Both the position numbers and the translations under genes were made by a program. The notes under the pieces are model-generated. The model was not told the origin of the DNA, did not search any database, and saw nothing but the letters and a program-made list of their open reading frames with translations. From positions 1 through 33,469 of IMG/VR virus record IMGVR_UViG_3300021440_000081: 33,469 bases of DNA. One strand, 5' to 3'. This document shows, one piece after another, positions 2,438 to 33,469 of the stretch (positions are counted from its first letter, which is position 1; each line of letters starts with the position of its first letter). This DNA comes from a virus.

Positions 2438-2773
2438 TTAAAGATCATAAGTTCCAATGGTGTCCCAATGATGTTCCTCAGCAAGTTCTTTAGAGTTACG
2501 AGAAGACGATGCAGAGCGTTTTTTAGCCGCACATTTCGCATGAGATTTTTCACACTTGGATGAATCGCTTGATTCAATTTCAAGTCGTAAAGACTCAAAT
2601 GCAGCAGAATCGGCTTTCAGAATGTACCCTTCGTTGTTGCGAAACAAAAAGGCCATGCGAGCTAGTTTCTTGTAATGATCTTTCATGATTGACCCAACAA
2701 TTTTTACTTTTAATACTGCGCCTTTCATTTTTGCGTAAGAGTCAGTGATATTTGAAGAGGTTTGAAGTTTCAT
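2438..2773 (-). CDS. Unknown 111-residue accessory protein
   Basis: Unrecognised. I chose ATG 2773; a GTG at 2821 in the same frame lies inside the operator and upstream of the likely transcription start. The N-terminal half has a beta-like pattern (K-G-A-V-L-K-V-K-I-V-G-S-I, then a basic helix with M-A-F-L-F-R-N-N-E-G). The C-terminal third is rich in Ser, Lys, Cys and His (S-S-K-C-E-K-S-H-A-K-C-A-A-K-K) and may be disordered or bind metal. It is transcribed alone, opposite to its neighbours, from a near-consensus promoter carrying a 16-base palindrome. That is the layout of an individually regulated accessory (moron-type) gene. A host-interaction or anti-defence role is possible but unproven. 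Confidence 0.65.
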   Translation of the reverse strand: MKLQTSSNITDSYAKMKGAVLKVKIVGSIMKDHYKKLARMAFLFRNNEGYILKADSAAFESLRLEIESSDSSKCEKSHAKCAAKKRSASSSRNSKELAEEHHWDTIGTYDL

Positions 2774-2806
2774 ATTAGCGGTCTCGTTTGCGTTGTTGTT
2801 GAGATA

Positions 2807-2835
2807 ATAATAGACGGTCACGCGTGACCGGTCAA
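2807..2835 (-). promoter_or_regulatory. Promoter with palindromic operator for the 2438-2773 gene
   Basis: On the minus strand: -35 TTGACC (2835-2830), 17-base spacer, -10 TATTAT (2812-2807). The spacer is almost filled by the perfect 16-base palindrome CGGTCACGCGTGACCG (2815-2830). This is a classic place for a dimeric repressor to block RNA polymerase. Eighteen bases (2820-2837) recur exactly at 4385-4402. Confidence 0.75.
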
Positions 2836-2912
2836 GCTATTTCAGCGCAATATGTAAAATAAAAACCTAATCTTTGTATTTAGGTAAAATATGGCATTGC
2901 CCCCGTCGAAAA

Positions 2913-2941
2913 TTGTGAGCAATAGGTTTAGGTTTCATACT
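2913..2941 (+). promoter_or_regulatory. Predicted promoter for the 2964-3335 gene
   Basis: TTGTGA (2913-2918), 17-base spacer, CATACT (2936-2941), followed by AATAGGTAAATTATC before ATG 2964. It is divergent from the promoter at 2807-2835. An ACCTAA/TTAGGT inverted repeat lies just upstream (about 2865-2885). Confidence 0.45.
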
Positions 2942-2963
2942 GTTAAATAATAGGTAAATTATC

Positions 2964-3335
2964 ATGAGCATGCACATAGAAGAACCATGGAAAAAATTTA
3001 GGGATGCAAGCGGGTGTGGTTTATCTTCAATAAATGGAGATTTGATAGCAGAAGGATTGGCGGAGGTTGACGCTGATCGCATCGTGGTCTGCGTTAATAG
3101 CCTCGCTGGCGTACCAAATGAGCTATTGCAAACCATTCGCCAGGCCGATTTGCTAGCGGAAGTAACCGCCCAGAGGGATGAGCTGCTTAACTACATTTTT
3201 AAATGCCTTCAAGAGGCGAATTATTGTGTAGGAAATGAAGAGGGGCTATCAATTCAGCTTTGTAAAATACGATCCATAGCTGCTGAAGCCATTGCCAAGT
3301 GCGAGGTGAAGAACGAAAAAAGCCCTACTCTTTAA
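2964..3335 (+). CDS. Conserved phage protein (unknown), CVNSLAGV-type
   Basis: 123 residues from ATG 2964. The segment I-N-G-D-L-I-A-E-G followed by A-D-R-I-V-V-C-V-N-S-L-A-G-V-P matches a motif seen in many small phage proteins of unknown function. The middle (about 58-85) is probably a coiled coil. The gene stands alone between two leftward units, and its last codons overlap the terminator of the leftward operon (3316-3342). Confidence 0.65.
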   Translation: MSMHIEEPWKKFRDASGCGLSSINGDLIAEGLAEVDADRIVVCVNSLAGVPNELLQTIRQADLLAEVTAQRDELLNYIFKCLQEANYCVGNEEGLSIQLCKIRSIAAEAIAKCEVKNEKSPTL

Positions 3336-3342
3336 GCAGGGC
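3316..3342 (-). terminator. Intrinsic terminator of the leftward 4319-3325 operon
   Basis: Read on the minus strand: GCCCT, 11-base loop, AGGGC, then six T. It overlaps the end of the convergent + strand gene. The stem is short (5 bp), so efficiency may be moderate. Confidence 0.6.
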
Positions 3343-3507
3343 AAGAAGCACATCATCTGAAATCGTGATAACCGGCCACTCAGGGAAGAGGTAAACAAGC
3401 GTTTTTAGGTCGTCCGGTTTAACCCACACCTCGCGTTTAACAAGGCCGGATTCCTTGCGCTGAGCCCGCAGGCGCTTGTTTAGTTCACCCTTTGGAATAG
3501 CGGCCAT
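3325..3507 (-). CDS. Small basic protein, possible ribbon-helix-helix regulator
   Basis: 60 residues. After a basic N-terminus (about residues 8-20), K-R-E-V-W-V-K-P-D-D-L-K-T-L resembles the beta-strand and first helix of ribbon-helix-helix DNA-binding proteins (strand R-x-E-V-W-V followed by a helix cap P-x-D/E). Such proteins are small dimers that bind palindromes. The start overlaps the stop of the upstream gene as TAATG, so it is coupled, and it is the last gene before the terminator. It is another candidate to bind the 2815-2830/4385-4402 palindrome, which would be autoregulation because that operator controls this operon. Confidence 0.6.
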   Translation of the reverse strand: MAAIPKGELNKRLRAQRKESGLVKREVWVKPDDLKTLVYLFPEWPVITISDDVLLALLKE

Positions 3508-3710
3508 TACATGCCACCGCTTAGCAGCCAGGACGCCACAGAGTGCTCATAATCGTAACCATCATTTCCGGACGTGTGACAAGAAACAACGCGGCCAAGA
3601 GCATCTTTAACGGTTCGCAAAGCTACATGTGGGCGCCCTGGATTAGGGGTGGTGCGCTCAAGAGTGCAACCAAGTTTTTCCCACATTGCGTTGGGGCTTA
3701 GGTCATTCAT
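3507..3710 (-). CDS. Unknown 67-residue accessory protein
   Basis: Unrecognised. ATG at 3710 is preceded on the minus strand by AAGG at good spacing. The sequence is mixed, with G-R-P-H-V-A-L-R-T-V-K-D-A and a C-terminal Y-D-Y-E-H-S-V-A-S-W-L-L. It is coupled to the 60-residue gene downstream by TAATG. It belongs to the leftward accessory operon next to the Acb2-like gene. Confidence 0.6.
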   Translation of the reverse strand: MNDLSPNAMWEKLGCTLERTTPNPGRPHVALRTVKDALGRVVSCHTSGNDGYDYEHSVASWLLSGGM

Positions 3711-3769
3711 TTTTGGCCTTTATGTAAATTTAGTTGATAAACCTTACAAACGGTAATGCTGTATGTAAG

Positions 3770-4069
3770 CTATGCCCCTTGCGGGGCGGGGTTGTTATCT
3801 GCTGCCGCTGCATGGAGTCCAAGGGCCGCAAGTAAATGGAGCCTATAAGCCTTTGGCGTCTGCAGTATCGCGCGGCGGTAGTTGGGGCGAGACCTTATGC
3901 CCGGCAGTTCTAGTATCGTCAACCGGACATACACGTCAACGGCTCGCCCAGGCCGGTTACCTGGCTTCGCATAGATATGGGTAAGCTGCACGAGGGAAGT
4001 CATTAGGCGCGGCTCCAAGGTTATGGCCCTTGCGGGGCGGGTTGGTAAATTAGCTAAGTGTTGAGCCAT
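3770..4069 (-). CDS. Possible 99-residue protein bracketed by a 20-base repeat
   Basis: An uninterrupted frame from ATG 4069 to TAG 3770, overlapping the end of the upstream gene by 20 bases, within a 340-base stretch that otherwise has no gene. The predicted protein is basic, helix-prone and unrecognised. Against it: it contains no family pattern, and both ends coincide with a direct repeat (3771-3790 and 4022-4041) read in different frames, which suggests DNA- or RNA-level structure. It may be a real gene, an RNA element or an insertion. Confidence 0.35.
   Translation of the reverse strand: MAQHLANLPTRPARAITLEPRLMTSLVQLTHIYAKPGNRPGRAVDVYVRLTILELPGIRSRPNYRRAILQTPKAYRLHLLAALGLHAAAADNNPAPQGA
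3771..3790 (+). repeat. Direct repeat copy 1 with GCCCC-TTGC-GGGGC hairpin
   Basis: Twenty bases, TATGCCCCTTGCGGGGCGGG, with a partner at 4022-4041 differing at one base. The core is a perfect 5-bp hairpin with a 4-base loop, without a T-run on either strand. Confidence 0.7.
4022..4041 (+). repeat. Direct repeat copy 2
   Basis: Nineteen of 20 bases match 3771-3790. The single change (C to G) weakens the hairpin stem. Together the copies bracket 231 bases. Confidence 0.7.
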
Positions 4070-4319
4070 CTAAAAAATTGTATGTGCCATGGTATCCAGG
4101 GCGCGCAACTTGAGTAGCCGCCCCTGCATCAACCAGGTAGCTAGCTTCGCGCAATGCACCGTCGGCGGAGCTGTGGCCATGGGATAAGGCCTCTGCGATC
4201 GTCATACGAGAGAGCCTTTCGATTTTTGCAGCAATCCCGTAAACCTTGGCGCGGCAGATGCTGGGCGGGGTAGATTGAGCCAAAGTTTGCAATGCTTTAA
4301 TAGTTTTGGTCTTAGACAT
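4050..4319 (-). CDS. Unknown 89-residue accessory protein, first gene of leftward operon
   Basis: ATG 4319 is used; an in-frame TTG at 4325 is less likely. GAGA lies about 8 bases upstream. The N-terminal half is basic and helical (K-T-K-T-I-K-A-L-Q-T-L-A-Q and A-K-V-Y-G-I-A-A-K-I-E-R-L-S), followed by E-A-L-S-H-G-H-S-S-A-D-G-A-L-R-E-A. I do not recognise the family. It is the promoter-proximal gene of a leftward operon divergent from the Acb2-like gene, with the shared palindromic operator upstream. Confidence 0.65.
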   Translation of the reverse strand: MSKTKTIKALQTLAQSTPPSICRAKVYGIAAKIERLSRMTIAEALSHGHSSADGALREASYLVDAGAATQVARPGYHGTYNFLDGSTLS

Positions 4320-4370
4320 AATCAAATCTCATCTTATTTCGCTCCGGGCCTATCCCGTTGCTGTGATGTA

Positions 4371-4402
4371 ACTATAGGATAGTAACGCGTGACCGGTCAA
4401 GC
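4371..4402 (-). promoter_or_regulatory. Promoter with second copy of the shared operator
   Basis: On the minus strand: -35 TTGACC (4400-4395), 18-base spacer, -10 TATAGT (4376-4371). Bases 4385-4402 (ACGCGTGACCGGTCAAGC) are identical to 2820-2837. Here the palindrome is imperfect on the -10 side (GTAACGCGTGAC). Confidence 0.7.
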
Positions 4403-4427
4403 ACTCAATGCAAAATAATTTAAAAAA

Positions 4428-4456
4428 TTTCCTTACTTCGAGTTCGGTGGTACAAT
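4428..4456 (+). promoter_or_regulatory. Predicted promoter for the Acb2-like gene
   Basis: TTTCCT (4428-4433), 17-base spacer, TACAAT (4451-4456), then AAGGGG ahead of ATG 4481. It is divergent from the operator-bearing promoter, so the sponge gene would have its own rightward transcription. Confidence 0.5.
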
Positions 4457-4480
4457 CGAAAAAAGTCAAGGGGAATTTTT

Positions 4481-4723
4481 ATGAAAAATCAGCACGAAAA
4501 AATCACTGGATACCGAGATTTGACGCGGGAAGAAATCGACCTCATGAACAAGGTCAAGCAGAAGGGCGTTGAGCTGGGAGAACTAATCCAGGAGATTGAA
4601 ATTTACAGCTCGCAAACAGGCGGTCATGCAATTGATATGCGCTGGCTCGACATTGGCAGAACTGATTTGCAAACCGGAACAATGGCGCTAGTTCGCTCAA
4701 TTGCCAGGCCAACCACTTTCTAA
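4481..4723 (+). CDS. acb2: Acb2-like cyclic-oligonucleotide sponge (anti-CBASS)
   Basis: 80 residues, the usual length for Acb2, a small phage protein that assembles as a hexamer and sequesters cyclic di- and trinucleotide signals made by CBASS defence systems. The family pattern is clear: H-E-K-I-T-G-Y-R-D-L-T near the start, E-E-I-D-L-M-N-K-V-K (17-26), then a C-terminal helix R-W-L-D-I-G-R-T-D-L-Q-T-G-T-M-A-L-V-R ending R-P-T-T-F. Tyr11 and Lys26 coincide with the ligand-contacting residues I recall for phage PaMx33 Acb2. It has its own predicted promoter and AAGGGG ribosome site, and sits beside unknown accessory genes, suggesting an anti-defence locus. Ligand binding is not shown by sequence alone. 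Confidence 0.87.
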   Translation: MKNQHEKITGYRDLTREEIDLMNKVKQKGVELGELIQEIEIYSSQTGGHAIDMRWLDIGRTDLQTGTMALVRSIARPTTF

Positions 4724-4733
4724 GGGGTAATTT

Positions 4734-4847
4734 ATGCGCGTATCAAAACCAAGCAAACCACGGGTTAAAGAGGTAATGAATCCCAAGAAGACCACGTATT
4801 CGGGCGGCAAGCCATCAAGATCGGCGCCTACGCGCAAGGGGCGCTAA
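4734..4847 (+). CDS. 37-residue very basic peptide between sponge and lysis genes
   Basis: ATG 4734 follows GGGGTAATTT, a good ribosome site, 10 bases after the Acb2-like stop. The product is rich in Lys, Arg, Pro and Ser and ends K-G-R. Its stop overlaps the next start (TAATG), so it is coupled to the membrane protein. It may bind nucleic acid; no function is recognised. Confidence 0.55.
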   Translation: MRVSKPSKPRVKEVMNPKKTTYSGGKPSRSAPTRKGR

Positions 4848-33134: not shown

Positions 33135-33469
33135 ATGAAGTACGAACTAACCAAAAACACAAAAACATTTTTCGGTAAAACTCTGTACCAAATTCGCGCC
33201 CTAGTTGCCATCACCGCTATAGGAGTTCAGGTTGGCGATCTTGGCGGTTACATTGAGCGTGAAAGCTGTCTGTCACATTATGGCGATGCCTGGGTGTCCG
33301 GCAATGCCTGGGTGTACGGCGATGCCCAGGTGTCCGGCAATTCCCAGGTGTCCGGCAATGCCCAGGTGTCCGGCAATGCCCGGGTGTACGGCAATGCCCA
33401 GGTGTCCGGCGATGCCCAGGTGTACGGCAATGCCCAGGTCGGCAATGCCCGGGTGTCCGGCAATGCCCG
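33135..33469 (+). CDS. Hexapeptide-repeat protein, N-terminal part (gene runs off the window end)
   Basis: ATG 33135 with GAG upstream. The first 45 residues are a non-repeat head typical of this family (K-T-L-Y-Q-I-R-A-L, then V-G-D-L-G-G-Y-I-E-R-E-S-C-L-S), followed by about eleven six-residue beta-helix units. One unit is a residue short (A-Q-V-G-N-A) and one has Ser for Ala (G-N-S-Q). The last two bases plus window base 1 complete an Arg codon that continues in register into the gene end at 1-460. Function unknown; it stands between early genes and the nin-like genes. Confidence 0.85.
   Translation, partial: MKYELTKNTKTFFGKTLYQIRALVAITAIGVQVGDLGGYIERESCLSHYGDAWVSGNAWVYGDAQVSGNSQVSGNAQVSGNARVYGNAQVSGDAQVYGNAQVGNARVSGNA
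33283..33469 (+). repeat. 18-base tandem repeat continuing at the window start
   Basis: Ten to eleven units with the same three variable codons as 2-253. A 3-base deletion at about 33439 shortens one unit while keeping the frame. Confidence 0.95.

Follow-up and report, generated by a model that had tools for sequence, protein, structure and literature searches.

Acb2 proteins soak up the cyclic-nucleotide alarm signals which bacteria use to stop phages. They bind trinucleotides more tightly than dinucleotides, their ligand range varies among homologues, and they take up signals shared with type III CRISPR (PMC12043709). The Acb2 of phage T4 binds 2',3'-c-di-AMP with a Kd of about 62 nM, and its Y8A substitution disrupts cyclic-dinucleotide binding; Acb2 is also detected by Panoptes, which it triggers (PMC12657218). 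In Tad1, an N-terminal beta-sheet domain precedes the helices (PMC12043709).

The window that we have analyzed spans 33,469 bases and makes up an entire virus record of IMG/VR. One of its genes, acb2, very probably codes for a typical Acb2: a hairpin protein, likely a hexamer, which would hold cyclic di- and trinucleotides used in defence. In this uncultivated P22-like phage, the gene appears to be accessory and to stand alone. This reading draws on family membership, a predicted hairpin fold, conservation of ligand residues, purifying selection and an accessory distribution, all of them obtained here. The features of the locus are:

4481..4723, + strand: acb2, predicted 80-aa cyclic-oligonucleotide sponge of the Acb2 family (PF24729, PDB 8h2j, predicted fold)
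4468..4473, + strand: Shine-Dalgarno-like AAGGGG, 7 nt before the ATG, read from the sequence
4448..4456, + strand: TGGTACAAT, possibly an extended -10 promoter element of acb2, inferred by reading the sequence
4385..4402, + strand: element of 18 nt (ACGCGTGACCGGTCAAGC) in the gap which precedes acb2, with an exact second copy at 2820-2837
4734..4847, + strand: small basic 37-aa ORF directly after acb2, 45% identical to the ORF at 1172-1291 of a sister contig (L025)

The acb2 ORF starts with ATG and its frame is intact over 80 codons. Its product has a single Pfam-A match, PF24729 (Acb2_Tad1_hairpin, E 1.3e-17), which covers positions 1-58 of the 58 in the profile, with a score of 64.1 bits vs a curated cut-off of 27. 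A phmmer search of PDB sequences aligned residues 1-80 of the query to residues 1-93 of the Acb2 chain 'p26' (8h2j, E 1.8e-19). The only strong matches were Acb2 entries (8h2j, 8ixz with E 4.8e-19, and their groups), while T4 Vs.4 (7uq2) gave a weak match. Two PHROGs families were also matched, phrog_717 and phrog_29522, both of unknown function. As judged from the sequence, the Acb2-family match is far beyond chance. The first-pass annotation had described the product as Acb2-like from end to end and had proposed a profile search against the family; the match to the full PF24729 profile and the alignment to 8h2j across the whole query bear out this description.

The AlphaFold2 model of the monomer, obtained with 13 aligned sequences, has a mean pLDDT of 86, with low confidence for residues 1-8. 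Two long antiparallel helices (16-45 and 53-75) follow a short N-terminal segment, as in Acb2. When the model was compared with 350,542 PDB chains, the best nine matches were all Acb2 or T4 Vs.4, either apo or cGAMP-bound, with probability 1.00; the tenth had a probability of 0.13. With Acb2, the model reaches moderate TM-scores of 0.69-0.73, normalized by query length. Sequence and predicted fold give the same closest PDB structures, Acb2 (8h2j, 8h2x) and T4 Vs.4 (7uq2). A library of predicted virus structures gave weak matches only, several of them named Acb2/Tad1 hairpin proteins. The protein is not a Tad1: no strands or N-terminal beta-sheet domain are predicted in the model, and 80 aa leave no room for such a domain.

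The alignment to the Acb2 of phage PaMx33 (locus L016) is gap-free over the first 40 residues or so. Since no gap precedes them, Tyr11 and Lys26 have the same numbering in both proteins, just as the first-pass annotation had stated; the corresponding residues of T4 Acb2 are Tyr8 and Lys23. I8, G10, Y11, N23, K26, M68 and R72 are invariant in 76/76 distinct homologues, which include T4 Vs.4 (27% identity). R54 and T61, the equivalents of PaMx33 R67 and T74, are also kept. An unusual residue is R16, a position where 69 of the 76 homologues have Q; all other near-invariant positions are kept. We take G10, Y11 and K26 to be residues tied to the dinucleotide site; G10 and R54 are presumably residues of the trinucleotide site, both kept here. 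Lys26 is said to have a role at the dinucleotide site, reportedly described by Huiting et al. in 2023.

Relatives of acb2 are found in 225 of 50,697 phage records and in 48 plasmid records, and a profile-guided scan of IMG/VR confirmed at least 437 candidates. Since hundreds of phages carry relatives, acb2 is a genuine but ordinary member of the known Acb2 family. The commonest length among 76 homologues sampled is 74 aa (39 cases), followed by 80 aa (11 cases), so a short hairpin is normal; the 93-aa PaMx33 Acb2 is a long form within this sample. A 109-aa homologue with a long hairpin is found in a Burkholderia aenigmatica locus (L122:8850-9179), with the terminase large gene 0.7 kb downstream.

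The window contains genes for NinB, NinG, an endolysin, the large terminase, a portal (phrog_156), a major head protein of the P22 coat type, the head closure protein Hc3, an ERF recombinase and a YqaJ nuclease. At the level of modules (NinB, NinG, portal, coat and Hc3), the earlier description of the phage as P22-like is right; identity of the structural proteins to those of named phages does not exceed about 38-50%. A 108-aa MarR-family regulator (2042-2368, PF01047 above cut-off) adjoins the nin-type genes. An Rfam search across the window gave no match. Both ends of the record (33135-33469 and 1-460) lie inside a repeat-rich type of gene with VYGNAQVSGNA-like short repeats. Since the same kind of gene is found at both ends, the genome may be circular, with a break introduced by the assembler within the repeats.

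Six sister contigs have portals 89-92% identical to that of the window. PF24729 is absent from all six, most of which are fragments that may not cover the region of acb2. One of them, L025, does cover it: a short leftward ORF is followed by a 110-nt intergenic piece, 91% identical to 2786-2894 of the window. A gp49_66-family gene (L025:617-1168, 183 aa, PF13876 E 2.5e-33) is then found where the window has 2964-4723, and to its right the small basic ORF and the lysis genes follow as in the window. The flanks are kept and the center is swapped, therefore the lysis genes are preceded by an exchangeable slot, which contains acb2 in the window. The 37-aa ORF marks the right edge of this slot, because it is kept in L025, which does not contain acb2. 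We conclude that acb2 is accessory and occupies a variable slot, with the nin-type genes on one side and the lysis/terminase genes on the other. An association of acb2 with the gp49_66 family, suggested by the swap in L025, was discarded: a search of 80 acb2 loci found no such gene, even with a threshold of E 1.

No good -35 element accompanies TGGTACAAT, which was not reported by a two-hexamer promoter scan. The two exact copies of ACGCGTGACCGGTCAAGC in the window compare with 0.02 expected by chance. Both lie in divergent gaps, and each overlaps a leftward sigma-70-like promoter; the promoter-like site which overlaps the copy at 4385-4402 is 4400-4371. In the spacers of these two promoters, the palindrome GGTCACGCGTGACC is present in full or as a half. 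A variant of ACGCGTGACCGGTCAAGC is found in the matching gap of the sister phage (L025:545-562). ACGCGTGACCGGTCAAGC is possibly a shared operator.

The host was sought by means of the terminase and the tail spike. Nothing close was found in terminase scans of 84,980 species genomes: The first scan gave no match, and the second gave only distant relatives, most of them in Gammaproteobacteria, with identities of up to 47% over their best segment. Since these relatives are only distant, no host can be named. The tail spike gave only short or weak partial matches. The SMODS nucleotidyltransferase marker (PF18144), a model which does not cover all CD-NTases, was detected in 6/185 sampled genomes from the class of Microbulbifer, and is therefore a minority trait in that class. 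A CBASS marker was found in 0/7 genomes with distant terminase relatives, a result which carries no information here, as none of these genomes is the host of the phage. Because Acb2 also acts on signals from other systems, the gene by itself is no proof of CBASS in the host. The first-pass annotation took acb2 to imply CBASS, or another cyclic-nucleotide defence, in the host population; for CBASS this is not supported. The gene suggests past selection by a cyclic-nucleotide defence somewhere in the history of the phage, not CBASS in its present host.

By analogy with characterized relatives, the two-helix hairpin protein would most likely form a hexamer. This putative hexamer would tightly hold cyclic di- and trinucleotides from bacterial defence cyclases, without cleavage. 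With their ligands sequestered, the defence effectors would not be switched on, and the phage would be protected against CBASS.

The surroundings of acb2 have also been interpreted as an anti-defence locus, from 2438 to 4847. It is improbable that the gene is part of such a clustered island. As an island might, the region differs between sisters, with genes in both orientations and short ORFs of no known family. Nevertheless, Pfam, PHROGs, NCBIfam and PADLOC searches with its other ORFs gave nothing above a family cut-off, so that no second anti-defence gene is seen, and the L025 slot carries the gp49_66 gene instead. Across 73 non-redundant acb2 loci, no neighbor family recurs in more than six. 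The nearest relatives, L002 (71% identical) and L003 (69%), have nothing else detectable in common with the window. In L002 the gene is found among early recombination-type genes (roles read from ORFs), in the Vibrio phages 1.246.O and 1.087.A it has capsid genes on one side and sheath genes on the other, and in the Marinobacter phage PS6 it lies between terminase and portal. Mobility without a fixed partner fits a gene which acts alone.

The idea that acb2 is a decayed or non-functional copy, carried passively, is extremely unlikely. The absence of the gene from sister phage records and the unusual R16 would agree with it, but the reading frame is intact, a ribosome-binding site is present, and R16 is the only exception among the near-invariant positions. 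A comparison with L002 indicates purifying selection, with dN about 0.15, dS about 1.2-1.4 and dN/dS about 0.11-0.12. Somewhat unlikely, though deserving more weight, is a sponge of the Acb2 family directed mainly against a system other than CBASS. Such a protein would take up the signal of that system (either cA3, which is shared with type III CRISPR-NucC, or a different cyclic nucleotide), with a ligand range shifted by the short hairpin. The conservation of R54 and T61 agrees with this possibility, as do the tighter binding of trinucleotides and the different ligand ranges of homologues (PMC12043709). Compared with PaMx33 Acb2, 13 residues are missing from the hairpin, so ligand preference may differ, above all at the trinucleotide site. 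Against this, the dinucleotide-site residues G10, Y11 and K26 are all kept and 80 aa is a common length among family members, which gives no hint of a special ligand range. We consider it improbable that this is a short-hairpin Acb2 with a ligand range unlike that of PaMx33, for example for a cyclic trinucleotide or a non-CBASS signal of a probably gammaproteobacterial host.

As a typical Acb2, acb2 adds one well-conserved member to a large family, and a case of swappable single-gene cargo in an uncultivated P22-like lineage. The understanding of CBASS is unchanged. The larger point is gene mobility: The phages which carry close relatives are unrelated, and the gene is found at early, structural or lysis positions.

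In comparison with known systems, the Acb2 of the Pseudomonas phages PaMx33 and PaP2 (8h2j, 8h2x, 8ixz) belongs to the same family and has the same hairpin fold, with 45-51% identity. Y11 and K26 are at equal positions, and the N- and C-terminal segments are conserved. On the other hand, PaMx33 Acb2 has 93 aa vs 80 aa here, where the shortening affects the hairpin tip, and the PaMx33 and PaP2 genes are found after replication genes, whereas acb2 lies upstream of lysis genes. T4 Vs.4 (T4 Acb2, 7uq2) shares the fold by structure search and has the seven invariant residues in common, but it is only 27% identical and does not keep R54, W55 and G66, C-terminal residues of the family. The anti-Thoeris sponge Tad1 has a C-terminal helical hairpin covered by the same Pfam family, PF24729. 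The closest annotated relatives, both 64% identical, are the homologues of Vibrio phage 1.246.O, which also has 80 aa, and Acinetobacter phage Ac42. These are unrelated phages with the gene at unrelated positions, between capsid and tail-sheath genes in the former and near a topoisomerase gene in the latter.
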